Source: Micromonospora humi
Lineage (GTDB): Bacteria; Actinomycetota; Actinomycetes; Mycobacteriales; Micromonosporaceae
NCBI RefSeq assembly: GCF_900090105.1
Contig: NZ_FMDM01000012.1
Span: forward strand, 81,104-145,103
Direction: 5' to 3'
Length of the DNA stretch: 64,000 nt
Within the stretch, counting starts at the first letter, position 1; every line of letters starts with the position of its first letter. A program made the position numbers and the translations under genes. Below the pieces are notes generated by a model that did not search any database, was not told the origin of the DNA, and was given only the letters and a program-made list of their open reading frames with translations. Shown one piece after another: positions 45,048-58,610 of this stretch.

Positions 45048-46037
45048 GTGACCCGGCCCACCGCGCGTGTCCTGGCGTTGCTGGAGATCCTCCAGGCCGG
45101 TGGCGGCTTCACCGTCGCCGACCTGGCCGGGCGGCTGGGCGTCGACGAGCGCACGGTCCGCCGCTACGCCACGCACCTCGCCGACCTCGGCATCCCGGTC
45201 GAGGCCCGGCGCGGTCGCTACGGCGGGTACCGGCTCGCACCCGGATACAAGCTGCCGCCACTCATGCTCACCGACGAGGAGGCCGTCGCCGTCATGCTCG
45301 GGCTCGTCGCCGCCACCCGGGCAGGGCTGGTCACCGCCGAGGGCGCGGCCGCCGAGAGCGCGACCGCGAAGATCCGCCGGGTGCTGCCGGCCGTCCTCGC
45401 CCGGCGCATCGATGCGCTGCTGGACACCGTGGACTTCACCGCACCGGTCCGCAGGTCCGCCCCGCCGGGCATCGAGGTGCTGCTGGTGCTCGCCGACGCG
45501 GCCCGACACCAGCAACCGGTGAGCATCACCTACACCAGTTGGCGCGGCCGGTCCGGCGAGCGGCAGCTCGACCCGTACGGGCTGGTCTTCCACGCCGGCC
45601 GGTGGTACGTCACCGGACACGACCACCACCGCGGCGCCGTGCGGACGTTCCGGCTCGACCGGATCGGGACGGCCCGCCCCGGCCAGGGCAGGTTCGACAT
45701 CCCGGCCGGCTTCGATCCCACCGGGCAGGTTCTCGCCGGGCTGGCCGCCGTGCCGTACGCGCACGACGTCTCCGTGGTGCTGCACACCAGCCTCGGGCAG
45801 GCGCGGCGACGGATCCCGCCGTCGGTCGGCACGCTCACCGAGGTCCCCAGCGGGGTGCGCCTCACCACCCGGGCCGAACGGCTCGACGGTGCGGCACAGC
45901 TGCTCGCCGGGCTCGGCTGGCCCTTCACGATCGACCGACCGGACGAACTCAAGGACGAGGTACGCGCCCTGGCCACCCGGCTGCTCACCGCCACCGAGCG
46001 GCCGGGCCTCAGCGCAACGCCGCGGACGCCTGAGTGA
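45048..46037 (+). CDS. HTH-WYL (YafY-type) transcriptional regulator
   Basis: 329 aa from GTG 45048. N-terminal winged HTH 'FTVADLAGRLGVDERTVRRY', 'GIPVEARRGRYGGYRLAPGY', then a WYL domain ('QPVSITYTSWRGRSGERQLD', 'PYGLVFHAGRWYVTGHD') and a WCX tail. WYL domains sense ligands such as nucleic acids or nucleotides. The 3' end overlaps the convergent TetR gene by 29 bp. Confidence 0.88.
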   Translation: MTRPTARVLALLEILQAGGGFTVADLAGRLGVDERTVRRYATHLADLGIPVEARRGRYGGYRLAPGYKLPPLMLTDEEAVAVMLGLVAATRAGLVTAEGAAAESATAKIRRVLPAVLARRIDALLDTVDFTAPVRRSAPPGIEVLLVLADAARHQQPVSITYTSWRGRSGERQLDPYGLVFHAGRWYVTGHDHHRGAVRTFRLDRIGTARPGQGRFDIPAGFDPTGQVLAGLAAVPYAHDVSVVLHTSLGQARRRIPPSVGTLTEVPSGVRLTTRAERLDGAAQLLAGLGWPFTIDRPDELKDEVRALATRLLTATERPGLSATPRTPE

Positions 46038-46614
46038 TCAGCCACTCCTCCGACCGCTGGTAGGTCCAGCCGTTGTCGTCGAGCAGAGTGAAGTAGCCGG
46101 AGTATCCGAAGTAGAACCAGAGGATGTCGGTGGCCTCCGCGACGTCCATCCCGTCCCGGAGGCCGCCGACGTCGCGGAGCCGGACGGCGACGGCTTCCAC
46201 GGCGTCGCGGTAGCGCTTCGTGGCCACCCGCAGGTCCGCGGCGACCTCGGGATGGTGCGGCGCGGTCGTCAAGGTCAGCCGCATGATGTCGCCGTACGTC
46301 TCGCGCATGGCCCGGACCGTGGCCGCCGTGTTCCGCAGGATCTCGTCCGGGTCGGTGAGGGTCTCCTGCCGGGAGAGGGTCTGCGCCACGATCGGCGCCT
46401 GGCTCCACCGGTCGACAAGCGTCCGGATCAGCCCCTGCTTGCCGCCGGTCACCGCGTACACCGTGGCCGGCGCCACGCGGGCCTCCGCGGCGATGTCCTC
46501 GATCTTCGTCGCGAAGTATCCGTTGCGGGCGAAGAGCGAGCGCGCCGCGTCGATGATGGCGGCGCGGGTGGCCGCGGCGTACTCGGCCCGGCGGTTCCTG
46601 GGCGGTTCGGTCAT
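46009..46614 (-). CDS. TetR-family transcriptional regulator
   Basis: 201 aa. HTH 'IIDAARSLFARNGYFATKIE' and 'DIAAEARVAPATVYAVTGGK', ligand domain ending 'WFYFGYSGYFTLLDDNGWTY'. Divergent from the FAD oxidoreductase, with an inverted repeat in the 70-bp gap, so probably its repressor. Confidence 0.88.
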   Translation of the reverse strand: MTEPPRNRRAEYAAATRAAIIDAARSLFARNGYFATKIEDIAAEARVAPATVYAVTGGKQGLIRTLVDRWSQAPIVAQTLSRQETLTDPDEILRNTAATVRAMRETYGDIMRLTLTTAPHHPEVAADLRVATKRYRDAVEAVAVRLRDVGGLRDGMDVAEATDILWFYFGYSGYFTLLDDNGWTYQRSEEWLITQASAALR

Positions 46615-46637
46615 GGTCCGGTGAGCATAGCCTCCGT

Positions 46638-46666
46638 CATTCGCCAGAGTTGGTCTCCGGCGAATG
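46638..46666. promoter_or_regulatory. candidate TetR operator
   Basis: Inverted repeat CATTCGCC-N13-GGCGAATG (46638-46645 with 46659-46666) between the TetR gene and the FAD oxidoreductase. A second, wider one, CCAGAGT/ACTCTGG, occurs at 46644 and 46674. Confidence 0.5.
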
Positions 46667-46684
46667 GGTGGATACTCTGGCGAC

Positions 46685-47953
46685 ATGAGTGACAGGCTGA
46701 CGTCAGGACCGCGGTACGAGGCAGCTCGGACGATCTGGAACGGCGCGGTGTCCCGCCGTCCACTCGCCGTTCTTCGATGCGCCGGCGCGGCCGACGTCCA
46801 GGCCGGGGTGCGGGCCGCCCGGGAGGACGGTCTCCCGCTGTCGGTGCGCGGCGGCGGGCACGACTGGGCCGGTCGGGCCCTCGTCGACGGGGGACTGACG
46901 CTGGATCTGAGCCCGATGCGGCAGGTGAGCGTCGACCCGGCCACCGCGGTCGCCACCGTGGCGGGCGGCGCCACCTCGGCCGACGTGGCCGCGGCCGCGC
47001 AGCGGGCCGGGCTGGTCGCGGTGACCGGGACGGCCGGTTCGGTCGGGATGGCCGGCCTGACGCTCGGCGGTGGTTACGGGCCGCTGAGCGGCCGGTTCGG
47101 CCTCGCCGCCGACAACCTGCTGTCGGCCGACGTGGTGCTCGCCGACGGCACGCTGGTCACCGTCGACGAAGAACACGATCCCGAGTTGCTCTGGGCGCTG
47201 CGCGGCGGTGGCGGCAACTTCGGCGTGGTCACCACGATGCGGATCCGGCTGCACGCGGTGCCGGCGATCCTGGCCGGGATGATCATGTTCCGGTTCGACG
47301 TCCTGCCGGACCTGGAGGAGTCGCTGCTGCGCGGGCCGGACGAGCTGACTGTGCAGGCCGGGTTCATCACCGCGCCGACCGGCGAGCCGGTGCTCTTCGC
47401 CGCGCCGACCTGGTGCGGGGATCCCGAGGTGGGGATGAAGGCGCTGCACCGGCTCACCGAACTCGGCGAGCCGCTGACGGCGCAGGTCGGTCCGACCACG
47501 ATGCCCGACCAGCTCGCGCAGATCGACGCGATGTTCCCGGCGGGCCGCCACGTCGAGATCGGGGCACGTACGGTCACCGCACTCGACCCTGAGGTCCGGC
47601 AGATCCTGCTCGACGCCGCGAACGCCACGACCTCGCCGCTGTCGGCGATCTCGCTGCACAGCCTCCACGGGGCGGCCGCCCGCGTCCCCGCCGACGCCAC
47701 CGCGTTCCGCAACCGGACGCCGCACCTCATGGTCGAGACCATCGCGGTCTGGGAACCGGGAGACCCCGCTGAGGATCAACACCGTGCCTGGGTACGGGGA
47801 ACCGACAGGCTTCCGGGCGGCTATCCCAACCTGCTCGGGCCGGAGGACACCGCGCGTACCGCCGCCGCCTTCGGGCCGAACGGCGAGCGCCTGCTGGCCG
47901 CCAAGAAGCGGTACGACCCGGACCTCGTGTTCCACGCCCCGGGTGCGCTGTGA
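46685..47953 (+). CDS. FAD-binding oxidoreductase (berberine-bridge/VAO family)
   Basis: 422 aa. FAD_binding_4 domain with 'LPLSVRGGGHDWAGRALVDG', whose GGGH histidine is the usual covalent flavin site, 'SVGMAGLTLGGGYGPLSGRF' (the Cys for a second covalent bond is absent), and the C-terminal BBE motif 'GGYPNL' with 'KKRYDPDLVF'. An oxidase or dehydrogenase of a small alcohol, sugar or aromatic metabolite. Controlled probably by the divergent TetR; overlaps the MerR gene by 4 bp. Confidence 0.88.
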   Translation: MSDRLTSGPRYEAARTIWNGAVSRRPLAVLRCAGAADVQAGVRAAREDGLPLSVRGGGHDWAGRALVDGGLTLDLSPMRQVSVDPATAVATVAGGATSADVAAAAQRAGLVAVTGTAGSVGMAGLTLGGGYGPLSGRFGLAADNLLSADVVLADGTLVTVDEEHDPELLWALRGGGGNFGVVTTMRIRLHAVPAILAGMIMFRFDVLPDLEESLLRGPDELTVQAGFITAPTGEPVLFAAPTWCGDPEVGMKALHRLTELGEPLTAQVGPTTMPDQLAQIDAMFPAGRHVEIGARTVTALDPEVRQILLDAANATTSPLSAISLHSLHGAAARVPADATAFRNRTPHLMVETIAVWEPGDPAEDQHRAWVRGTDRLPGGYPNLLGPEDTARTAAAFGPNGERLLAAKKRYDPDLVFHAPGAL

Positions 47954-48811: not shown

Positions 48812-49135
48812 TCAGTTGTCGCCCGACGCCTGATCGTGCCGCCGGCCCGGGTCCAGGGCGAGGCGCTGCGAGATCCGAACGTACAACATGCCCATGCAGC
48901 CGCTGAGGGTCGCGATGACGATCGCCTTGGTGACCGGACTGCCCGTGGCGATGTCCGCCACGACGAGCAGGGACACCATGAACGCGGCCAAGCCGAGCGC
49001 GGCGTAGACCCTGTCCTGCGCCTTCTCCCACCGGCGCATGGTGCGGCTGCGCTGCCGGTCGACGCTGCGGGTCTCGATGAACAGTGCGATCAGCAGGACG
49101 GGAACCACCTGTACCGCACCCTCGTAGAGGATCAC
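48812..49135 (-). CDS. small membrane protein
   Basis: 107 aa from GTG 49135, with GGAAAGG eight bases upstream. Three hydrophobic segments: 'AVQVVPVLLIALFIETRSV', 'YAALGLAAFMVSLLVVADIA' and 'AIVIATLSGCMGMLYVRI'. A charged linker with five Arg/Lys lies between the first two. No family. Encoded in tandem with the DUF3159 gene, 32 bp downstream. Confidence 0.7.
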   Translation of the reverse strand: MILYEGAVQVVPVLLIALFIETRSVDRQRSRTMRRWEKAQDRVYAALGLAAFMVSLLVVADIATGSPVTKAIVIATLSGCMGMLYVRISQRLALDPGRRHDQASGDN

Positions 49136-49167: not shown

Positions 49168-49833
49168 TCAGGTGACAGGTCGGGGCCCCGCGTCCGGTCG
49201 GCTGCCGGCCGCGATGAGGCGTCGGGTGCTGCGCCGGAAGCTCCACACGACGACCAGCGCGGCCAGCACGGTGAGTGGAGTGCCCATGACGATCCGGGCG
49301 AGGCCCAGCCCGCCGGTGCTGTCGGTCAGATAGAGCCACTGCTGGATCGCGAATCGCGAGCCGAACACCGACGCCGCGGCCAGGGTCGCCAGATCGTGTG
49401 CCGTGCGGACGGCCCCGTCGGATCGCCACGCGTGCGTTCCGCCGTGCAGGACGTTCCAGATGACGCCGGTCAGCGGGCGACGAGCCAGCACCGACCCGAA
49501 CGTGACGACGAACCCGGCCAGCGAGGCCCAGATCCCGATCACGAAGAAGTCCCGCGCGGAGCCGGTCCAGGCGACGATGCCGGCGGCCACCGCCACGCCG
49601 AGCAGGCTGCCGACAGCGGAGACGAGGCGCTCGCCGCGCAGCAGCCGAACGATGAACAACACCAGCCCGGTCGCGACCGCGACACCGGCCGCCACCGCCA
49701 GCGGAAGGAACGTGTTCGCCGTGACGAACACGATCACCGGGACCGTCGAGTAGACGAACCCGGCGACGCCGCCCATCTGGTCCAGCACGGTGGTTCTGGC
49801 CGGCATCGCGTCTGGTTCCGCCTCGTTCCGCAT
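49168..49833 (-). CDS. DUF3159-like membrane protein
   Basis: 221 aa from ATG 49833 with six hydrophobic segments. 'GSARDFFVIGIWASLAGFVV' and 'LTGVIWNVLHG' with 'WRSDGAVRTAHDLATL' are typical of the DUF3159 family of actinobacterial integral membrane proteins (function unknown). The conserved 19-bp palindrome lies 16-34 bp upstream of the start. Confidence 0.72.
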   Translation of the reverse strand: MRNEAEPDAMPARTTVLDQMGGVAGFVYSTVPVIVFVTANTFLPLAVAAGVAVATGLVLFIVRLLRGERLVSAVGSLLGVAVAAGIVAWTGSARDFFVIGIWASLAGFVVTFGSVLARRPLTGVIWNVLHGGTHAWRSDGAVRTAHDLATLAAASVFGSRFAIQQWLYLTDSTGGLGLARIVMGTPLTVLAALVVVWSFRRSTRRLIAAGSRPDAGPRPVT

Positions 49834-49848
49834 CCGAGCAATTAGCGG

Positions 49849-49867
49849 GTGTGCCGTAGCGGCACAC
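49849..49867 (-). promoter_or_regulatory. GTGTGCCG-CTA-CGGCACAC palindrome, copy 1 of a recurring element
   Basis: Perfect 8-bp inverted repeat with a 3-bp centre, preceded on the minus strand by GGGCTTGA. The half GTGTGCCGCTACGG with the preceding TTGA recurs at 51699 and 57318. Confidence 0.6.
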
Positions 49868-50064
49868 TCAAGCCCACACCGCATGGAGTGGCCGAACTCA
49901 CGAGCGTTCGGCGGCGGGTCGGCACGTCGGGGCAGCCGCAGGATCGCGGCCAGTTCCTCGCGGATCCGTTGCTGGCGCTCGATGCTGGCGGCCGGTTCGG
50001 CGTCGAGGGCGCGGAACGTATGTCCCGCGCCCTCGACCGAGCTGCCACCGGGGCACAGTCGACG

Positions 50065-51561
50065 TCAGCCGCGTTGGCAGTTCCGGTCGCCGGCCGGCAT
50101 CGCGCCGTCGACCAGGTACGACGTGGTGACGTTGAGCGCGCAGGCGTTGCCGCCGAGCACGTAGACGCCGTGTCCGCTCCCGTCGACGGTGACCAGCCGG
50201 GCGCGCTTGTCGAACTTCTCGCGCAGCAGCTTGCCACCGGCGAGCGGGGTGACCGGGTCGTGCCGGTTCTGCAGGATCAACACGTTGCGCCGTCCCTTGT
50301 CGTTCACCGCGACGGGCGGCTCGGACGGTTCGTGCGTCCAGTAGGCGCAGGGGAGGATATTGGCGCTGGCCGCGCCGAACAGCGGGAACCGCTTGCGGTC
50401 CTGCGCGACGGCCCGCCGGTAGGTGTCCACGTCCTCCGGCCACTCGACGTCGTTGCAGGTGACGGCGAGGAACACGGTGAGCGCGTTGTCCTGCGGGTTG
50501 GGTGCCGCTGCCGCCTTCGCCTGCGGTGCCCCACCGGGGTTCAGGTAGGTCTGCCAGAGCCGCGCGAGGTTGGCGTACTGGATCTCGTTGTAGAGGGAGC
50601 CGAAAGTGACCTGCCGAAAGAGGGGACCGGTCATCCCGTCGGGGGCGGGTTTCTCGTCGAGCCGTTCGGCGAGGGTGAGGTAGGTCCGGCGGACCTGCTG
50701 CGGCGTGCGGCCCAGGCCGTAGGACTCGTGCCGCTTCGCCGCCCACGCCGCGAAGTCGGGGAACGTCTGCTCCATGCCGAGCGCGAACCGGCGCAGTCCG
50801 GCACGGTCGAGGTGGGTGTCGCCGACGATGCTGTCCAGCACCACCCGATCGGTGGTGGCCGGGAACATCGAGGTGTACGCGGCGCCGAGTGCCGACCCGT
50901 AGGACGCCCCGTAGAAGCTGGCCTTCTCCTCGCCGAGCGCGGCGCGGATCCGGTCCAGGTCGCGGGCCATGTTCGCGGTGCTCAGGTGGCGCAGCCGTCC
51001 CTCGGTGTCGTGGGCCGCGCACCGGTCGGCGACGTCCTTGGCGATCTCCGCCTGCCGGGTGACGGCCGCGTCGTCGGGCGCGTACGGCGGGATGTTGGCC
51101 CAGTAGGCGTCGTCGGCGGTGAAGCCGCAGCTCACCGGCGACGAGTGGCCGACGCCCCGGGTGTCCATGCCGATCAGGTCGTAGGCGTCGGTGACGCCGG
51201 TCGGCAGTCCCTTCGAGACCAGGAAGGCCGGCTGGTCCAGGCCGGTGCCGCCCGGCCCGCCCGGGTTGAACATCAGCACGCCACGTCGCTTCTCCGGCTT
51301 CGTGCTGGCGATCCGCGACACCATGATCTCGATCTGGGTGCCGTCCGGGTCGTCGTAGTCCAACGGAACCGGCACCTTCGCGCACCGCACCGGCAGCTGC
51401 ACCGTCGGCGGCACCACCACGTCCTTCGGGCACGCCGTCCACTGCGGACCCGCCGCGGACCTCGGCACCGCCGACTCCTCGGCCATCGCCGGAATCACCG
51501 TGACCAGGGCACCAGCCAACCCCAGCGTCCCCACCAGGGCCACACCACGTCTTCGCACCAT
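50065..51561 (-). CDS. secreted alpha/beta hydrolase (tripeptidyl aminopeptidase/SlpE-like)
   Basis: 498 aa with a signal peptide ('MVRRRGVALVGTLGLAGALV', cleavage after 'AMA'). 'LMFNPGGPGGTGLDQPA' is the oxyanion loop, GASYGS the nucleophile elbow (Ser near 235), and 'ILQNRHDPVTPLAGG' plus 'VDGSGHGVYVLGG' carry the Asp and His. The TAP_C-type lid fits extracellular tripeptidyl aminopeptidases such as Streptomyces SlpD/SlpE. Cys are paired near the C-terminus. Confidence 0.87.
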   Translation of the reverse strand: MVRRRGVALVGTLGLAGALVTVIPAMAEESAVPRSAAGPQWTACPKDVVVPPTVQLPVRCAKVPVPLDYDDPDGTQIEIMVSRIASTKPEKRRGVLMFNPGGPGGTGLDQPAFLVSKGLPTGVTDAYDLIGMDTRGVGHSSPVSCGFTADDAYWANIPPYAPDDAAVTRQAEIAKDVADRCAAHDTEGRLRHLSTANMARDLDRIRAALGEEKASFYGASYGSALGAAYTSMFPATTDRVVLDSIVGDTHLDRAGLRRFALGMEQTFPDFAAWAAKRHESYGLGRTPQQVRRTYLTLAERLDEKPAPDGMTGPLFRQVTFGSLYNEIQYANLARLWQTYLNPGGAPQAKAAAAPNPQDNALTVFLAVTCNDVEWPEDVDTYRRAVAQDRKRFPLFGAASANILPCAYWTHEPSEPPVAVNDKGRRNVLILQNRHDPVTPLAGGKLLREKFDKRARLVTVDGSGHGVYVLGGNACALNVTTSYLVDGAMPAGDRNCQRG

Positions 51562-51678
51562 CTTCTTCTCCCGTTCCGGCCCGCACTCGGCGGGCTCGCC
51601 CCCATCCGAACCCGTGCCCTCGCGGCACAGTCAAACGGGCGCCGGGTCTGCTGCGGATCTTTCTCGAGGACGGTCGGC

Positions 51679-51740
51679 AGGATCACACGCGCGCGGAGTT
51701 GAGTGTGCCGCTACGGCCGGGTGTCTCGTCGAGAACGCAA
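51679..51740 (+). promoter_or_regulatory. conserved upstream element, copy 2
   Basis: AGGATCACACG, 9 bp, then TTGAGTGTGCCGCTACGGCC, then GGGTGT. The same arrangement with identical spacing is found at 57297-57343. It lies just upstream of the lipoprotein hydrolase, 43 bp before its ATG. TTGAGT could act as -35. Confidence 0.6.
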
Positions 51741-51766
51741 ACATGTGGATCGAATCGGAGACTTCC

Positions 51767-53389
51767 ATGACCTTGTTCGACCCGGGTCCGCCGGTGGACT
51801 CGTCCGCCCCGCCCGCTCCCCGGCGCGCCACCGCCCGGGTCGGCGCCGCTGCCGGGGCGGCCGCGGTGCTCGCGCTGGTCACGGCCTGCACCGGCACCCC
51901 GAACTCGGCGGAGTCCGAGCCGCAGCCGTCCGCCGCCGGGCTGGAGGTCTTCTACGGGCAGAAGCTGTCGTTCGGCTCGTGTGCGGGCTACGGCACCACG
52001 CCCGGGCAGCAGAAGCTCTACGTCGCCCCCTTCGAGTGCGCCCGGCTGACGGTGCCGCTGGACTACCGGAACCCGAAGGGCCGGACCATCCAGGTCGCGG
52101 TGCTCCGGCTCCCCGCCCAGGGCGACCCCGGGCAGCGCATCGGATCACTGGTGCTCAACCCGGGCGGCCCGGGCGGCTCGGGCCTGGCCCAGGCGACGAG
52201 CTTCAGCGCCGCGCACGCGAAGAGCCCGCTGCGGCAACGCTTCGACGTGGTCGGGTTCGATCCGCGCGGGGTCGGGTCGTCGACGCCCGCGATCAGCTGC
52301 TTCACCGACGCCGAACGCGATCGTGGCGAGGACCGGACGACGCTGCTGGCGTCGTCCGGGCAGTGGAGCGAGGAGGACACTCGCCGTCTGGCGGAGCGCT
52401 GCGCGAAGGGCTCCGGCGGGGCGGACGTCCTGGCCGCGGTCGGCACCCGCAACACCGCCCGCGACATGGACGTCCTGCGCTCGGCGCTGGGCGACGAGAA
52501 GTTGACCTACGCGGGACAGAGCTACGGCACCCGACTCGGCGCGGTCTACGCCGAGATGTTCGGCAGGAACGTACGGGCGCTGGTGCTGGACGGCGTGACG
52601 GACCCCACCCTGGAGAACCCGCAGCGGCGGCTCACCCAGCAGGCCGGCTTCCAGCAGAGCTTCGAGAAGCTGGTTGCCTCCTGCGTGCCCAGCAGGGACT
52701 GCCCGCTGGGCACCGACCCGGCCCGGGCCACGGAGGTCTTCCAGAAGCTGGTCCGGCCGCTGATCGACAAGCCCGTCCCGGCCGGCGAGGGGCGCACGCT
52801 GAACTTCAACCAGGCCACCGGCGGGGTCACCGCCGGCCTCTACTATCCCGAGGCCTGGCCCACGCTCATCAAGGGCCTCGCCCAGCTCAAGCAGGGCGAC
52901 GGGACGCAGCTCCTGAAGGTCGGCGACGTGTTCGGCGGTCGGGACGCCTCCGGCGTGTGGGACAACTTCCTCGAGGCCAACCTCGCCGTCAACTGCAACG
53001 ACGAGGTGCGCCGCACGCCCGAGGAGGAAGCCCGGCTGCGCGCCGACATCGCCCGGACCAGCCCGTTCGTCGCCACCGGCAGGAACGTCGACGGCGTCAC
53101 CCGGGACCCGTGCGAGTCCTGGCCCGGCGAGCCGAGCCTCGGCATCCCCTACGCGCAGGACGTCGAGGGCCTGCCCGACACGCTGATCATCTCCGTCACC
53201 GGCGATCCGGCCACCCCGTACGCCGCCGGGAAGGTCCTGGCCGACGAGATCGGCGGCACGGTGCTCACCGTCGAGGGCGCGCGGCACACCGTCGCGCAGG
53301 AGCGGGTCAGCCCCTGCGTCGACGCCGCCTTCGTCGCCTACCTCATCGAGGTGAAGGTGCCCGCCGAAGACCGACACTGCCGACTCTGA
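51767..53389 (+). CDS. alpha/beta hydrolase lipoprotein (tripeptidyl aminopeptidase-like)
   Basis: 540 aa from ATG 51767, chosen for GGAG six bases upstream (ATG 51743 is possible). Lipobox 'ALVTACTG' gives a lipidated Cys. 'LVLNPGGPGGSGLAQAT', nucleophile 'YAGQSYGTRLGAVYAEMFG', acid 'VTGDPATPYAAGKVL' and 'GARHTVAQER' define the family. A divergent paralogue of the gene at 50065. Confidence 0.87.
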   Translation: MTLFDPGPPVDSSAPPAPRRATARVGAAAGAAAVLALVTACTGTPNSAESEPQPSAAGLEVFYGQKLSFGSCAGYGTTPGQQKLYVAPFECARLTVPLDYRNPKGRTIQVAVLRLPAQGDPGQRIGSLVLNPGGPGGSGLAQATSFSAAHAKSPLRQRFDVVGFDPRGVGSSTPAISCFTDAERDRGEDRTTLLASSGQWSEEDTRRLAERCAKGSGGADVLAAVGTRNTARDMDVLRSALGDEKLTYAGQSYGTRLGAVYAEMFGRNVRALVLDGVTDPTLENPQRRLTQQAGFQQSFEKLVASCVPSRDCPLGTDPARATEVFQKLVRPLIDKPVPAGEGRTLNFNQATGGVTAGLYYPEAWPTLIKGLAQLKQGDGTQLLKVGDVFGGRDASGVWDNFLEANLAVNCNDEVRRTPEEEARLRADIARTSPFVATGRNVDGVTRDPCESWPGEPSLGIPYAQDVEGLPDTLIISVTGDPATPYAAGKVLADEIGGTVLTVEGARHTVAQERVSPCVDAAFVAYLIEVKVPAEDRHCRL

Positions 53390-53535
53390 CCCCGCCCGCC
53401 GGCGGCGGCCATGCCGGATCGGCATGAACATCGCGACGTCTGTCTTCGACCGTTCGCGGGATCGCTGCCAGGGTCGAGTCATGTCCGTCCGGCGCCGTCC
53501 GGCGCCGGCCCGACGCATCACGAGGGAGAGCGATC

Positions 53536-54441
53536 ATGATTCTTGTGGCACGCCGCCTGGTGGCCGCGGTGGCAGTGGCGTCCCTGGCCGCCTGCGGCCC
53601 CGCCGAGGCCGCCGGGCAGCCGACGCCCGACCGTGCGGTGCCGGCCATCTCGTCGTCCGCCCCCGACCGGGACCGCGAGTTCCGGCGGCTGGAGCAGGAG
53701 TTCGACGCGCGGCTGGGGGTGTACGCCGTCGACACCGGCACCGGCCGGACCATGGGCTACCGGGCCGACGAGCGGTTCGCGTACGCCTCGACGTTCAAGG
53801 CCCTCGCCGCCGCGGAGATCCTCGACGAGACCACCGACGCCGAGCTGGACAAGGTGGTGCGGTACTCGGCGGACGACCTGGTGACCTACTCGCCGATCAC
53901 CGAGCAGCACGTCGACGAGGGCATGACGCTGCGCGCGATCGCCGACGCGGCCGTGCGGTACAGCGACAACACCGCCGGCAACCTGATGTTGCGCCGGCTC
54001 GGCGGGCCGCAGAAGTTCGAGAAGGAGCTGCGCGAGGTCGGGGACAAGGTCACCGACCCGGCGCGCTGGGAGACCGACCTCAACGAGGCCCGGCCGGGTG
54101 ACCGGCGGGACACCAGCACGCCCCGGGCGCTGGCCGGGTCCCTGCGGGCGTACGCCGTCGGTGACGCCCTCGAACCGGCGGACCGCGACGTCCTCAACGG
54201 CTGGCTGCGGGGCAACACCACCGGTGCCGAGCTGATCCGCGCCGGCGTCCCCGATGGCTGGGTCGTCGGGGACAAGACCGGCTCCGGCGGGTACGGCACC
54301 CGCAACGACATCGCGGTGATCTGGCCGCCGGACCGCGCCCCGATCGTCCTCGCGGTGCTCTCCAGCCGCGACGAGAAGGACGCCGAATACGACAACGCCC
54401 TCATCGCCCGGGCGACCGAGGTCGCGCTCGCCGGATGGTGA
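53536..54441 (+). CDS. class A beta-lactamase (lipoprotein)
   Basis: 301 aa. Lipobox 'ASLAAC' (Cys20). All class A motifs are present: S85-T-F-K88, S143-D-N145, E179-T-D-L-N183 (omega loop) and K247-T-G249. It hydrolyses beta-lactams and is anchored outside the membrane. ATG 53536 behind GAGGGAGAG. It is followed 60 bp later by the CPBP protease gene and is likely co-transcribed. Confidence 0.93.
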
Positions 54442-54501
54442 CGCCGGCCCGCTCCCTAGGGCGTGGCACCGCCGACCCGACGAAAGGTACGTGAATCTCC
54501 C

Positions 54502-55416
54502 ATGAACGCCGCACGATCCGACGGAGCGCGGGAGCATCCGCCGCCTGCCGTCGATCCCTCCCGCCCGTTCGGCGCTCACCTGCGCATGGCCTGGTGGAAG
54601 CCGCTCGTGGTCCTCGCCCTGCCGCCGTTGGTGATGCTGGTCCTGCAGGTGCTGTCCTGGCAGCTCGTGGGCGTCATCGAGGGCAGCGACGACCCGATGT
54701 CCCCGACCATGACACCGTTGAAGTCCCTGGGTATCAACCTCAGCATCTTCACGGCGGGTGTCGTGGCGATCCTGCTGCTGGCCCGGATCGCCGGGGTGCC
54801 GTGGCGCAGCCTGATCAGCTCGCCCCGGGCCTTCGACGCCCACCGCCTGGGAACCTACCTGGCCGGGGCGGCGCTGCTGGTGGGTGTCGGGATCGGGGTG
54901 ACCGCGCTGGTCGCGCGCGACTCGACGCCCTGGGTCGGCTTCGGTGTCAGCGGCACGACGATCGGCCTGCTGGTGGTCACCGTGCTGAGCACGCCGCTGC
55001 AGTCCGTCGGCGAGGAGCTGTGGTGGCGCAGCGCGGTGCTGCCGGCCACCGGCTCGTGGCTGCGTGCGGTCCGGCCGGCCCTGGCCGTCGGGCTCGTCGT
55101 CTCCAGCCTGGGCTTCGCCGTGCTCCACGGCTCGAACGACCCCTGGTTCTTCGGATACTTCGCCTTCATCGGCCTCTGCACCGGCCTGATGGCGATCATC
55201 AGCCGCGGCATCGAGGCGCCGGTCGCCTTCCACGTCGCCAACAACATCCTGTTCGGAATCGTCAACACGGTGCTGGCCGACGGCGCGCCCTACGCGATCG
55301 ACCGGTCCACCGACACCGGTGACGCGTCGCTGCTGATCCTGGCGACCGTCAACGTCGCCATGGTGGCGCTGGTGTGGCTGCGCGAGCGGCGAGCCCGGGC
55401 CGCGAGCGCGGACTAG
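54502..55416 (+). CDS. CPBP-family intramembrane metalloprotease
   Basis: 304 aa from ATG 54502. Eight or so membrane spans and the catalytic motifs EELWWR (near 173-178), 'GFAVLHGSNDP' (FxxxH), and 'VAFHVANN' (HxxN). CAAX-protease and bacteriocin-processing type. Its stop overlaps the stop of the convergent serine hydrolase in the palindrome CTAG. Confidence 0.86.
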   Translation: MNAARSDGAREHPPPAVDPSRPFGAHLRMAWWKPLVVLALPPLVMLVLQVLSWQLVGVIEGSDDPMSPTMTPLKSLGINLSIFTAGVVAILLLARIAGVPWRSLISSPRAFDAHRLGTYLAGAALLVGVGIGVTALVARDSTPWVGFGVSGTTIGLLVVTVLSTPLQSVGEELWWRSAVLPATGSWLRAVRPALAVGLVVSSLGFAVLHGSNDPWFFGYFAFIGLCTGLMAIISRGIEAPVAFHVANNILFGIVNTVLADGAPYAIDRSTDTGDASLLILATVNVAMVALVWLRERRARAASAD

Positions 55417-56333
55417 CCCCACCAGGGCAGGGTGCCCGTCCGCAGGTGGTCGTGCAGTGAGCGGGCGACCTGCGCCATCGTCGCCTCGCTGCCGGGTTGG
55501 GCGGCGGCGGGCACCCGGGAGGCGGTGAGCGCGGCCACCGCGTACGACTGCCCGTCGGCGTGCTCCACCACCCCCACCTCGTGGCGCAGGTGCAACAGCG
55601 TGCCGGTCTTCGACGACCAGCGGGACGCGTCCGAGGTGAAGTCCGGCGCCAGCCGCTGCCGGTGCAGGTTGTCGCCCATCAGGGCGCGTACCCGGGCGGC
55701 GGTGACCTGCTGGATCGTCGAGGGCCGCCAGAGGGCGTGCAGCAGGTCGACGAACGCCCGGGCCGACCCGGTGTTGGCGCGGGTGACGTCGAGTTGGGCG
55801 ACCGGGTGGCCCTGCCCGGGGGTTTCCGCGCCGATGGCGAGGGAGTGGGCCAGGTGCGCGTCGTCGGGGTCGAGGCGTTCGACCGGTGTGTCGGAGAGGT
55901 CGCCGGCCCGATGCCGGACGGCGATGCCGTCGATCCGCAGTCGTCGCAGCTCGGCGGTGACGGCGGCCGGCGGGACGAGGTCGAACAGGGCGTCGGCGGC
56001 GACCGAGTCGCTGATGCAGGTGCTCAGGTAGAGCAGGTCGTCCACGGCGATCCGGGCGGGGTGGCGGAAGCGGCTCAGCCCGGTCGGGCCCGGCGTGGTG
56101 AGCCGGCCGGGCGCGACCTCGACCGGCCTCGTCGGGTCGAGTTCCCCGCGCGCGACCCGTTCTCCCACGGCGACCGCCAGCGGCACCTTCACCAGGGACG
56201 CCGACGGGTACGGGATGTCCGCGTCGAAGCCGATCTCCGCACCGGTGTCGAGGTCGCGGACCAGGAAGGCGCCGTGCAGTCCCGCCTCGTCGAGCAGGTC
56301 GCGCGCGTTGCGGACGACCGCGGTGGCGCTCAT
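55413..56333 (-). CDS. beta-lactamase-like serine hydrolase (class A fold)
   Basis: 306 aa from ATG 56333, within the LysR stop (ATGA). SxxK as 'YPSASLVKVPLAV' (near 43-46), SDS in 'LSTCISDSVAADAL' and KTG in 'RWSSKTGTLLHL'. No signal peptide is evident, so unlike the neighbouring beta-lactamase it may be cytoplasmic or a non-beta-lactam hydrolase. Co-transcribed with its LysR regulator, as in AmpR systems. Confidence 0.86.
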   Translation of the reverse strand: MSATAVVRNARDLLDEAGLHGAFLVRDLDTGAEIGFDADIPYPSASLVKVPLAVAVGERVARGELDPTRPVEVAPGRLTTPGPTGLSRFRHPARIAVDDLLYLSTCISDSVAADALFDLVPPAAVTAELRRLRIDGIAVRHRAGDLSDTPVERLDPDDAHLAHSLAIGAETPGQGHPVAQLDVTRANTGSARAFVDLLHALWRPSTIQQVTAARVRALMGDNLHRQRLAPDFTSDASRWSSKTGTLLHLRHEVGVVEHADGQSYAVAALTASRVPAAAQPGSEATMAQVARSLHDHLRTGTLPWWG

Positions 56334-57244
56334 GCCGGCTCTCCTGACGAGGGGCCCACGGTCGGCCCCGGGTGGTCGGGCGCGCCCAGGCATCGCGCCA
56401 CCTCGGCGTGCAGGACCGTGCCGAGCGGCTCGTGGTCCTCGCGTACGCCGGCGGCGAGGTCGTAGCCCCGCAGGAGGCGCGGGCCGGCGAGGGGGCACCA
56501 GTGCAGTCCGAACTCCTCGGCCTGCCGGCGGGAGCAGAGCAGCAGGTCGGGGGTGCCGAGGGCCGTCGCCGCGGCGTCGACCAGGGACACCGCGACGCTC
56601 ACCTGGGCCGGTGCCAGGCCGGCCGACTGACCGGCCCGGGTCAGTGGGTCCCGCAGGTGCGCGACGTCGTCCTCCGGTTGGATCAGGACTCGCCGGCGTG
56701 CCTGCGTGCGCGCCCGGCCGCTGCGCAACGTCTCCAGGTACACCGTCGGCGCCGGAAACGGGGTCCGGGCGGCCAGCCCCAGCGGCACCCGCCAGGCCGC
56801 CGCCGCTTCCGGAACGGCCACGATCCCGGCACCGACCTCCAGGGTCCGGCAGAGCCGGACCCGCTCCGCCGGGCCGGCCGGCCGTACCTCCAGGTGGATC
56901 CGCTGCCGTCGGGCCGCGACGACCAGGGCGGCGAGGAGGTGCGGCGGACAGATCTCGGGTACGGCGAACCGCAACGGCCGCAACCGGGCCCGCTCGGCGT
57001 CGTCGACCATCGCGTCGGCGAGGTCGACCAGCCGCCGCGCCGACGGCAGCATGTCCTGCCCGAACGAGGTCAACCGGACCGCGCGGGACGACCTGTCGAC
57101 CAACCGCCCCCCGAAATGTTCCTCCAGGGCGGCGACGCGGCGACTGGCGACCGACTGGGGGATGCCCGCGGCGGCGGCGCCGGAGGTGAAGCTGCCGTGG
57201 CCGCTGACCGCGACGAAGGCCCGGCAGGCGGCGACCACATCCAC
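56330..57244 (-). CDS. LysR-family transcriptional regulator
   Basis: 304 aa from ATG 57244. N-terminal HTH 'ACRAFVAVSGHGSFTSGAAA' and 'GIPQSVASRRVAALEEHFGG', then the PBP-like ligand domain. Overlaps the serine hydrolase gene by 4 bp, so it is in the same transcript, in contrast to the usual divergent arrangement. Its putative operator could be the conserved element at 57297-57343. Confidence 0.86.
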   Translation of the reverse strand: MDVVAACRAFVAVSGHGSFTSGAAAAGIPQSVASRRVAALEEHFGGRLVDRSSRAVRLTSFGQDMLPSARRLVDLADAMVDDAERARLRPLRFAVPEICPPHLLAALVVAARRQRIHLEVRPAGPAERVRLCRTLEVGAGIVAVPEAAAAWRVPLGLAARTPFPAPTVYLETLRSGRARTQARRRVLIQPEDDVAHLRDPLTRAGQSAGLAPAQVSVAVSLVDAAATALGTPDLLLCSRRQAEEFGLHWCPLAGPRLLRGYDLAAGVREDHEPLGTVLHAEVARCLGAPDHPGPTVGPSSGEPA

Positions 57245-57296
57245 CCACCGAACCTATACCCGGGGCGGAGGGACGAAGGGGGTCGGCGGCACGGAC

Positions 57297-57343
57297 GAGG
57301 ATCACACGGACGTGGGCTTGAGTGTGCCGCTACGGCCGGGTGT
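57297..57343 (+). promoter_or_regulatory. conserved upstream element, copy 3
   Basis: AGGATCACACG, 9 bp, TTGAGTGTGCCGCTACGGCC, GGGTGT, in the 127-bp divergent gap between the LysR regulator and the acyltransferase gene. Same spacing as at 51679. Confidence 0.6.
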
Positions 57344-57371
57344 GTCATCGACGGCGAACGTGTAGGACGAC

Positions 57372-58610
57372 GTGAAGGACACCATGCGCCACTCCTCAGC
57401 ACACCCGGTCGTGCGCCCGCTGGGCGCGTTCGAGCACCTCATCGACCTCTACATCAGCCGCAACCCGGTACAGTTCTCGCTCGCCGTCGAACTCGCCTCG
57501 CCCGTCTCGGCGTGGCAGCTGGAGCGCGCGCTCGTGCGGTTGCAGCAGACGCACCCGCTGCTCGCCGTCGGCATCGACCGCACCGGTGATCGCCCGACCT
57601 TCCGGGAGGCGACCGAACCGATCGAGGTGCGCCCGTTCCACGGGGGCGACTGGCGCGACGCGGCGGCGCTGGAGCAGACGCGCCCCGTCGATCCCGATCG
57701 GGGTCCGCTGGCGCGCGCGACGCTCGTGAGCGACGCGCCCGGTGCCGGAGGAACGGTCGTCCTGCTGACGTTCTCCCACCAGATCACCGACGGGCGCGGC
57801 GCGCTGCGCGCGGCACACGATCTCCTCGCGATCCTCGACGCGCGGACGCTCCCGTCCCGGCCGGTGCCCCTCGACCAGGAGAGCCTGCTCGCGCGGCTCC
57901 CAGAGTCGGAGCGGCCGGCCGATCACGACCCGGGCGCCGCGGCGGAGCCGACCGTGGCCGCCACGATCCGTCCGTTCGACGCCACGGCACCACGCATCGA
58001 GGTCGCCGAACTCGACCCCGCGACGACCGACCACCTTCGCACCGCCGCCCGCGCGCACGCGTCGACCGTCCAGGGGGTGCTCTGCGCCGCCGCCGCCCAG
58101 GCGCTCTCCGCGCGCACCGGGGCCGAGCGCGTCCGCATCAACGTTCCCATCGACCTCCGCTCCGCGCTGGGTCTCGAGGACGACGTCGTGAACCGCTTCA
58201 CGGCGACGACCGTGGTGCTGCGGGCACCCGCGGACAGCGCGCTCTGGTCACTCGCGCAGGACGCGACGGCGCAACTGCGCGCGGCGCGCGACGCCGCGCG
58301 CGAGGCGGCGCTGATGCTGGCCTCGCTCGACCCCGCCGATGCCGTGGAGGCAGAGGCGGCGATGCTCGCGGCCACCACCGCCGATCTGGAGATCACCAAT
58401 CTGGGGACGTCCGAGCCCGGCCCGTCGTCCGCGGTCGCGATCTGGGGACCGACGATGACGACGCAGGTCCGCGACGAGCGGATTCTCGGTGTCGTCACGC
58501 ACGGCGGGGCGCTCCGGATGGTGTTGACGACGCACAGCGCCACGGAGGGTCTTCCCGCTGACATCGCCGGCCGCCTCACCCGACTGCGAGCGTCGGGAGC
58601 CGAGGGCTAG
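57372..58610 (+). CDS. condensation-fold acyltransferase (PapA/AATase type)
   Basis: 412 aa from GTG 57372 (ATG 57384 is possible). The catalytic HxxxDG is 'FSHQITDGRG' (His136, Asp140), the N-terminal 'ALVRLQQTHPLLAVGID' and the C-terminal 'INVPIDLRSAL' are typical of the PapA5/alcohol acetyltransferase branch of condensation domains. It would transfer an acyl chain to an alcohol or amine. The partner membrane protein follows 37 bp later. Confidence 0.84.
   Translation: MKDTMRHSSAHPVVRPLGAFEHLIDLYISRNPVQFSLAVELASPVSAWQLERALVRLQQTHPLLAVGIDRTGDRPTFREATEPIEVRPFHGGDWRDAAALEQTRPVDPDRGPLARATLVSDAPGAGGTVVLLTFSHQITDGRGALRAAHDLLAILDARTLPSRPVPLDQESLLARLPESERPADHDPGAAAEPTVAATIRPFDATAPRIEVAELDPATTDHLRTAARAHASTVQGVLCAAAAQALSARTGAERVRINVPIDLRSALGLEDDVVNRFTATTVVLRAPADSALWSLAQDATAQLRAARDAAREAALMLASLDPADAVEAEAAMLAATTADLEITNLGTSEPGPSSAVAIWGPTMTTQVRDERILGVVTHGGALRMVLTTHSATEGLPADIAGRLTRLRASGAEG

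Follow-up and report, generated by a model that had tools for sequence, protein, structure and literature searches.

One question raised by a locus in the Micromonospora humi genome is why the same short block of DNA stands ahead of several genes for hydrolases and envelope proteins. The window that we analyzed is a stretch of 64,000 nucleotides (contig NZ_FMDM01000012.1, positions 81,104 to 145,103), and its own genome, here G000, is a 6.66-Mb assembly of 37 contigs with 99.99% completeness. The placement in Micromonospora is also seen from the relatives of MerR1, a MerR-family regulator encoded in the window, which has matches of 83-89% in M. mirobrigensis, M. maritima, M. okii and Micromonospora sp. 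RP3T. The answer that we propose is a MerR-type regulon, in which the block is the -35 element and the 19-bp spacer of four sigma-70-type promoters that would be read by MerR1. Judged from sequence, we give this reading a probability of about 0.85.

The repeated block and its promoter geometry

An earlier note on this DNA described a conserved 60-bp element in three places of the cluster. Its core, TTGAGTGTGCCGCTACGG, is indeed present in three exact copies, at 49871-49854 (minus strand), 51699-51716 (plus) and 57318-57335 (plus), and a fourth related copy is found at 51634-51615 (minus; 51634-51617 over the core, with three mismatches), ahead of the other hydrolase gene, AbhA. The window holds four motif matches against a shuffle mean of 0.04, and none of 100 shuffles reaches four. 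The shared block is therefore real, but its length has to be corrected, as only copies 2 and 3 share a long stretch, of 54 bp at 87% identity (51679-51732 and 57298-57351), and copy 1 overlaps with copy 3 over 25 bp and with copy 2 over 19 bp. Ahead of the DUF3159 gene, where a perfect palindrome was described, two inverted 8-bp arms, GTGTGCCG and CGGCACAC, flank a 3-bp centre that breaks the palindrome. Searching the whole genome with the merged 20-nt pattern TTGACTGTGCCGCTAGGGCA and up to three mismatches returned only the four cluster sites, which excludes hundreds of scattered copies, and the reversed-pattern control gave no match. A looser 26-nt pattern with three mismatches has 24 matches in the same genome, of which the cluster accounts for three, and its control has 20; its matches outside the cluster are background only and add no further targets in this genome. 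The local regulon that was suggested earlier is well supported, but with four promoters and not three.

All four sites can be read as promoters in which the conserved block lies within a 19-bp spacer between the -35 and the -10, and so can their counterparts in congeneric loci. A published review (PMC9909328) describes promoters of the MerR family as having spacers of 19-20 bp, in which a palindrome is bound and distorted by the MerR protein. Because a 19-bp spacer carrying a conserved block is the anatomy of such promoters, we read the element as part of a MerR-type promoter, and not merely as upstream sequence as had been thought. A dyad within the spacer is present at DUF3159 (class 1) and AbhA (class 2); at AbhB and at the PapA-type acyltransferase (class 3) the right half has diverged, and this divergence is itself conserved. 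In hand-chosen promoter alignments (8 sites of class 1, 4 of class 2 and 12 of class 3, with the copies of congeneric genome G008 excluded) the mean share of the commonest base is 94-96% in the 31-bp core and 58-82% in the flanks. The DUF3159 start codon falls at about the predicted +1/+2, and its transcript is predicted to be leaderless or nearly so. For the four promoters together, the predicted transcription starts are at about 49834 (minus), 51597 (minus), 51736 (plus) and 57355 (plus).

This conservation also bears on a simpler explanation, that the copies have no regulatory meaning and are recently duplicated DNA, with 5.6 kb between the two 54-bp repeats. Copies 2 and 3 do have the same orientation, and the locus of the congeneric genome G026 lacks the genes between them, so that the class 3 promoter divergent from AbhA is followed by the acyltransferase. 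Recombination between the repeats would give much the same arrangement; the LysR gene of that genome is kept about 40 kb away, which speaks against a simple deletion. Yet the core is kept across genomes while the flanks diverge, two copies are on the opposite strand and differ in their right halves, and sites in other genera have a -10 at the same distance. A meaningless recent repeat is scarcely credible, and we reject it on the core-versus-flank conservation.

Copies 2 and 3 were also said to share AGGATCACACG at the same distance, and this holds. Its TCACA core, which in the window is part of the GATCACAC box, is found 9-10 bp before the -35 in all 12 aligned Micromonospora class 3 promoters, and the partly decayed G008 copy at AbhB, outside the alignment, lacks it. 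Beyond Micromonospora, TCACA has a similar position in four loci (a Rhodococcus metagenome-assembled genome, Actinophytocola and two of Pseudonocardia, in one case as CCACA), and the mycobacterial asymmetric sites do not have it. Most DUF3159 promoters have a conserved upstream stretch of their own, GTGAGG...CACACC, about 4 bp further upstream than the class 3 box; the window copy of this stretch (49872-49916) has diverged.

The candidate reader of the sites

Which protein reads these promoters? Among 121 congeneric genomes, in which MerR1 and LysR orthologs were called at E values up to 1e-60, MerR1, DUF3159 and the PapA acyltransferase are found in the same seven. The motif with at most one mismatch is present in all seven genomes with MerR1 and in 2 of the 114 without it (Fisher p 5.7e-10, a statistic that ignores descent). 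In this genus search there were 19 matches at up to one mismatch and 74 at up to two, against a reversed-pattern control total of 37, and the two-mismatch level is thus largely background. Two-mismatch matches were examined in genomes without MerR1 (G036, G055, G079, G037 and one in G008), and those of G037 and G008 have no promoter-like -10 at 19 bp.

The two genomes that have the motif without MerR1 differ from each other. In G008 the DUF3159 and AbhB genes are only partial, and the MerR1 subfamily is not represented. In G076, AbhA adjoins an intact second regulator, MerR2 (45% identical), each with its own 19-bp-spacer promoter (L052 6367-8703). Remnants of MerR2 are also found in G023 and G026, and one stands behind AbhA in the window (Table 1). 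Since the AbhA operator is intact in the window while AbhA's own MerR2 is broken, it may be that MerR1 took over this operator. In G050 the acyltransferase lies far off on the same contig (some 5.8 Mb by coordinates), and G102 has it on another contig; both have kept the site, the latter with TGGAGT as the -35, which fits control in trans. In the window itself, the four promoters lie at distances of 1.1 to 8.6 kb from the end of the MerR1 gene.

The earlier note named the LysR regulator of the cluster (56330-57244) as the first protein to test for binding; on this view it would bind the element and control the cluster. This gene is divergent from the acyltransferase gene with one motif copy between them, and LysR is present in all seven genomes that have the motif and MerR1. 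However, LysR orthologs exist in 34 of the 121 genomes, and 27 of these have neither MerR1 nor a motif copy at up to one mismatch; G008 and G076 have motif copies but no LysR at E 1e-20, and the sites persist in G023, G026, G050 and G068 despite a LysR gene elsewhere in the genome. We also compared the LysR upstream regions of 19 genomes (26 rows, 7 of them duplicates, with locus L158 left out). The exact GATCACAC box is upstream of LysR only in G000 and G035, where LysR abuts PapA, and the G068 region has a one-mismatch match at another place. Based on co-occurrence and on these upstream regions LysR is rejected as the reader, which we regard as very unlikely. A GTATAGGTT -10 precedes LysR in most of the regions compared, and the gene appears to be leaderless. 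A second beta-lactamase-like protein pairs with LysR (window 55413-57244), and in other genomes LysR is located elsewhere.

An AlphaFold model of the MerR1 protein (predicted local distance difference test, pLDDT, 85.9) shows a winged helix-turn-helix MerR head, a coiled coil at residues 75-105 and a helical C-terminal domain. The head and coiled coil match the structures of CadR, CueR, SoxR, Mta and TipA with Z 11.5-12.9 over 100-115 residues, and the nearest solved sequence by profile is the TipA N-domain (2vz4, residues 3-105). The C-terminal domain alone (pLDDT 87.9) has no Foldseek match at E 0.001, and its similarity to the AlbA drug-binding domain is weak, with Z 4.9 (102 residues, root-mean-square deviation 4.3) and 4.4 (101 residues). 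A TipAS type is not supported for this domain by sequence: hhalign gave a probability of 0.2%, and the 17 Pfam families that 47 members matched at E 0.1 do not include TipAS. A separate TipAS protein is encoded in G000. From the model we infer that MerR1 would bind an organic compound, perhaps an antibiotic.

In the mechanism that we propose, the over-long 19-bp spacer would hinder the use of the promoters by RNA polymerase, as in other MerR systems, and a MerR1 dimer would sit on the dyad inside the spacer. Binding of a small molecule to MerR1, perhaps a peptide-like or other antibiotic, would then distort the DNA and turn the promoters on. The regulon would include DUF3159 with the small gene downstream of it, AbhA, AbhB with a class A beta-lactamase and an Rce1-like protease, and the PapA-type acyltransferase, and the output would be hydrolases and envelope proteins, a membrane protein among them, that are made in response to a chemical.

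Sites at MerR relatives across actinobacteria

If the sites belong to MerR1, can they be found beside its relatives? Scanning the genomes of 84,980 species gave 133 MerR1 relatives, and the best 80 of the 133 loci were used; alignments A1 and A2 combine the window with 46 of these 80. In the 76 loci from outside Micromonospora (1.47 Mb, the four Micromonospora ones being excluded), the pattern TTGA-N2-GTGCC-N5-GGCAC with at most one dyad mismatch has 62 sites, against 0, 1 and 0 in three shuffles. Among non-redundant cases, TTGA has an offset of -6 from the dyad 60 times, and each of 16 other offsets occurs 0-5 times. T31 and T26 are found in 60 and 55 of these 60 sites although neither was selected, which indicates a -10 at 19 bp, and the consensus of the palindromic sites is TTGACC-GTGCCGCagCGGCACGGTG-TnnacT.

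When up to two dyad mismatches were allowed and T31 was required, 86 sites were counted in the 80 loci. The gene that follows is MerR in 30 cases, DUF3159 in 10, AbhB in 6, AbhA in 6, PapA in 2, BlaA in 1 and another gene in 31. The 55 assigned sites fall in 2.7% of strand positions, and in nine of them the start-codon spacing is 37, which places the start exactly at the predicted +1. Four of the 30 sites preceding MerR stand before a second MerR that is 43-44% identical. For the other genes a chosen part was examined, from a list of 30 sites that includes some asymmetric sites outside the 31, and the seven proteins named are four S9-family peptidases, two Rce1-like proteases and one alpha/beta hydrolase; serine hydrolases and membrane proteases thus recur as targets. 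A class A beta-lactamase homolog of Pseudonocardia hydrocarbonoxydans (51%) has its own palindromic MerR-type promoter (L080 17060-17090).

The asymmetric pattern has 63 sites at up to three mismatches, 41 of them at up to two, against 0, 1 and 0 in the shuffles; most of the 22 matches at three mismatches are palindromic sites. T31 is found in 58 of 59 non-redundant sites of this pattern. The asymmetric operator is nearly constant in the Micromonospora copies, it is also present at AbhB of the Rhodococcus metagenome-assembled genome and of Actinophytocola, and 25 Mycolicibacterium/Mycobacterium loci have it in the form GTCCGRGTG at a promoter directly divergent from MerR. Judged by this conservation the asymmetric form is not mere decay. 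Two S9-family peptidase genes of Mycolicibacterium have an asymmetric operator and a start near the predicted +1 (L095 10724-12949 and L064 8048-9937), and the gene in L064 is directly divergent from MerR.

The asymmetric class raises the option that MerR1 reads only classes 1 and 2 by itself, and that class 3 with its TCACA box is read by MerR1 together with a second factor, or by that factor instead. This partly overlaps with the regulon proposed here. The right half of class 3 is GGCCGGGTG or nearly so in every aligned Micromonospora copy, and the regular place of TCACA before these promoters points the same way. Yet the closely similar asymmetric site of the 25 mycobacterial loci, divergent from MerR, does without TCACA, and of the 29 among the 80 loci in which no palindromic site was found, 22 carry an asymmetric one. 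Asymmetric sites therefore stand beside MerR often without a palindromic one, and MerR itself probably reads them. We consider a second reader of class 3 unlikely, though worth keeping in mind.

Several points weigh against MerR1 as the reader of all four promoters. Common descent may account for the joint presence of locus and motif in the seven genomes, many of the 80 relative loci are close relatives of each other, and the counts ignore the tree. The G008 sites are still recognisable without MerR1, with 0 mismatches at DUF3159 and 1 at AbhB, and have not decayed far. At class 3 sites the right half-site is not the canonical one, the -10 is poor, and the TCACA box is not accounted for by the proposed regulon. 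No such site was found ahead of MerR1's own operon in Micromonospora, and seven of the 80 relative loci (L096, L100, L102, L105, L111, L133 and L135) have neither kind of site. G000 has 24 MerR_1-type matches, so another MerR-family protein of the genome could bind the sites, as is also suggested by the AbhA site of G076, which has MerR2 and no MerR1. However, MerR1 is the only member of its subfamily in G000 at E 1e-12, it occurs in the same seven genomes as the regulon genes DUF3159 and PapA, and the same operator precedes the MerR relatives' own genes in 30 of the 80 loci. A different MerR protein as the reader is thus improbable, and we keep to MerR1.

Gene content, possible role and known systems

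The features of the locus are collected in Table 1. Based on the gene arrangement, the FAD-linked oxidase (flavin adenine dinucleotide) and MerR1 probably form one operon, the small gene is probably cotranscribed with DUF3159, and the class A beta-lactamase and the Rce1-like protease are both probably on the AbhB transcript. In the G068 locus the protease comes after the class 3 promoter without AbhB, and only a BlaA fragment lies between. AbhA is in addition a homolog of the TnmK2 hydrolase. A TetR gene (46009-46614, minus strand) is divergent from the FAD oxidase-MerR1 operon, and the gap of 46614-46685 has an inverted repeat like CGTCAGAGTTGGTCTCTGACG, which is recognisable in five congeneric loci; because this repeat recurs, MerR1 itself may be under TetR control.

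Table 1. Features of the locus, with positions in the window.
Feature	Position	Strand	Remarks
FAD-linked oxidase (BBE type)	46685..47953	+	Pfam FAD_binding_4 and BBE; stop overlaps MerR1 start
MerR1, MerR-family regulator, 256 amino acids	47950..48720	+	Pfam MerR_1 E 4.5e-15; candidate regulator of the four promoters
Small protein gene downstream of DUF3159, 107 codons from GTG	48812..49135	-	No Pfam match; kept beside DUF3159 in L042, L044, L045, L047
DUF3159 protein, putative regulon member	49168..49833	-	Pfam DUF3159 E 3.4e-57
Class 1 promoter-operator of DUF3159	49841..49871	-	TTGAGT-GTGCCGCTACGGCACACCC-GCTAAT, N19 spacer, 8-bp inverted repeat; aligned in 8 Micromonospora loci
MerR2 remnant behind AbhA	49909..50043	-	tblastn 62% over 45 amino acids, E 7.7e-10, to intact MerR2 of G076
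AbhA, TAP-like alpha/beta hydrolase	50065..51561	-	Pfam Abhydrolase_4/_1; closest chain of known structure is the secreted hydrolase 8e18 (E 2e-65)
Class 2 promoter-operator of AbhA	51604..51634	-	TTGACT-GTGCCGCGAGGGCACGGGT-TCGGAT, N19 spacer, dyad CTGTGCC-N5-GGCACgG
GATCACAC box, AbhB promoter	51681..51688	+	10 bp before -35
Class 3 (asymmetric) promoter-operator of AbhB	51699..51729	+	TTGAGT-GTGCCGCTACGGCCGGGTG-TCTCGT, N19; left half-site intact, right half GGCCGGGTG
AbhB, TAP-like hydrolase, putative regulon member	51767..53389	+	Pfam; related to mycobacterial Hip1/CaeA, Hip1 7sfm E 2.9e-99
Class A beta-lactamase (BlaA)	53536..54441	+	146 bp after AbhB; NCBIfam NF033103 336 bits vs cut-off 200
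Rce1-like (CAAX-type) protease	54502..55416	+	Pfam Rce1-like
GATCACAC box, PapA promoter	57300..57307	+	10 bp before -35
Class 3 promoter-operator of acyltransferase (PapA)	57318..57348	+	TTGAGT-GTGCCGCTACGGCCGGGTG-TGTCAT, N19 spacer
PapA/condensation-type acyltransferase, putative regulon member	57384..58610	+	Pfam PapA_C E 2.8e-09

Another question is what such a regulon would be used for. From the gene content the most likely role is that of inducible hydrolases that modify or destroy a compound met at the envelope. A role in antibiotic defence is a tentative possibility, with the odds against it. More doubtful still is an actinobacteria-wide and undescribed MerR system, in which one sensor of antibiotics or peptides would induce clan-SC serine peptidases (S9, TAP-like/Hip1-like), class A beta-lactamase, CAAX-type proteases and DUF3159 through palindromic and asymmetric operators, the asymmetric ones with a further TCACA factor, as an enzymatic defence against peptide-type or beta-lactam antibiotics. 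The MerR1 subfamily is spread over Micromonospora, Mycolicibacterium, Nocardia, Pseudonocardia, Rhodococcus, Streptomyces and others. As motif, candidate regulator and target list are now given for it, its inducer and function become directly testable, and DUF3159, a name that full-text searching located in only two papers, gains a regulatory context. Among the open-licence PubMed Central papers listed by our searches we recognised none on this subfamily, its operator or such a regulon.

Comparison with known systems can place these promoters. In Micromonospora there are transporter-MerR pairs (G079 and G055; the transporter alone in G036) with a similar near-leaderless TTGACT-GTGCCGTGGCGGCAY promoter and 19-bp spacing, in which the MerR nearby in G079 and G055 is 38-44% identical to MerR1. 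Unlike the locus described here, they have a different MerR and a different, transporter-like target (of the major facilitator superfamily, as assigned by eye), and no hydrolase regulon was seen with them. A related operator, TTGACTGTGCCGTGGCGGCAY, is found at the near-leaderless promoters of transporter-like genes in L054, L055 and L056, with a MerR close by in the first two. AbhB resembles the mycobacterial Hip1/CaeA, and here its control would be by a MerR-type promoter. To our knowledge, class A beta-lactamase genes under such a promoter would be unusual. Like TipA and AlbA, MerR1 combines a MerR head with an all-helical C-terminal domain, for which no relation to TipAS in sequence was detected. 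With the promoters of MerR, CueR, SoxR, BmrR, Mta and TipA, which have spacers of 19-20 bp, the sites share the 19-bp spacing, a candidate regulator with a winged helix-turn-helix and coiled coil and, at DUF3159 and AbhA, the dyad in the spacer. Unlike in those systems, there would be several targets here, some of them apparently in trans, the regulon would consist of hydrolase, beta-lactamase and acyltransferase genes and not of metal or efflux genes, and a conserved asymmetric class of operators stands beside the palindromic one.

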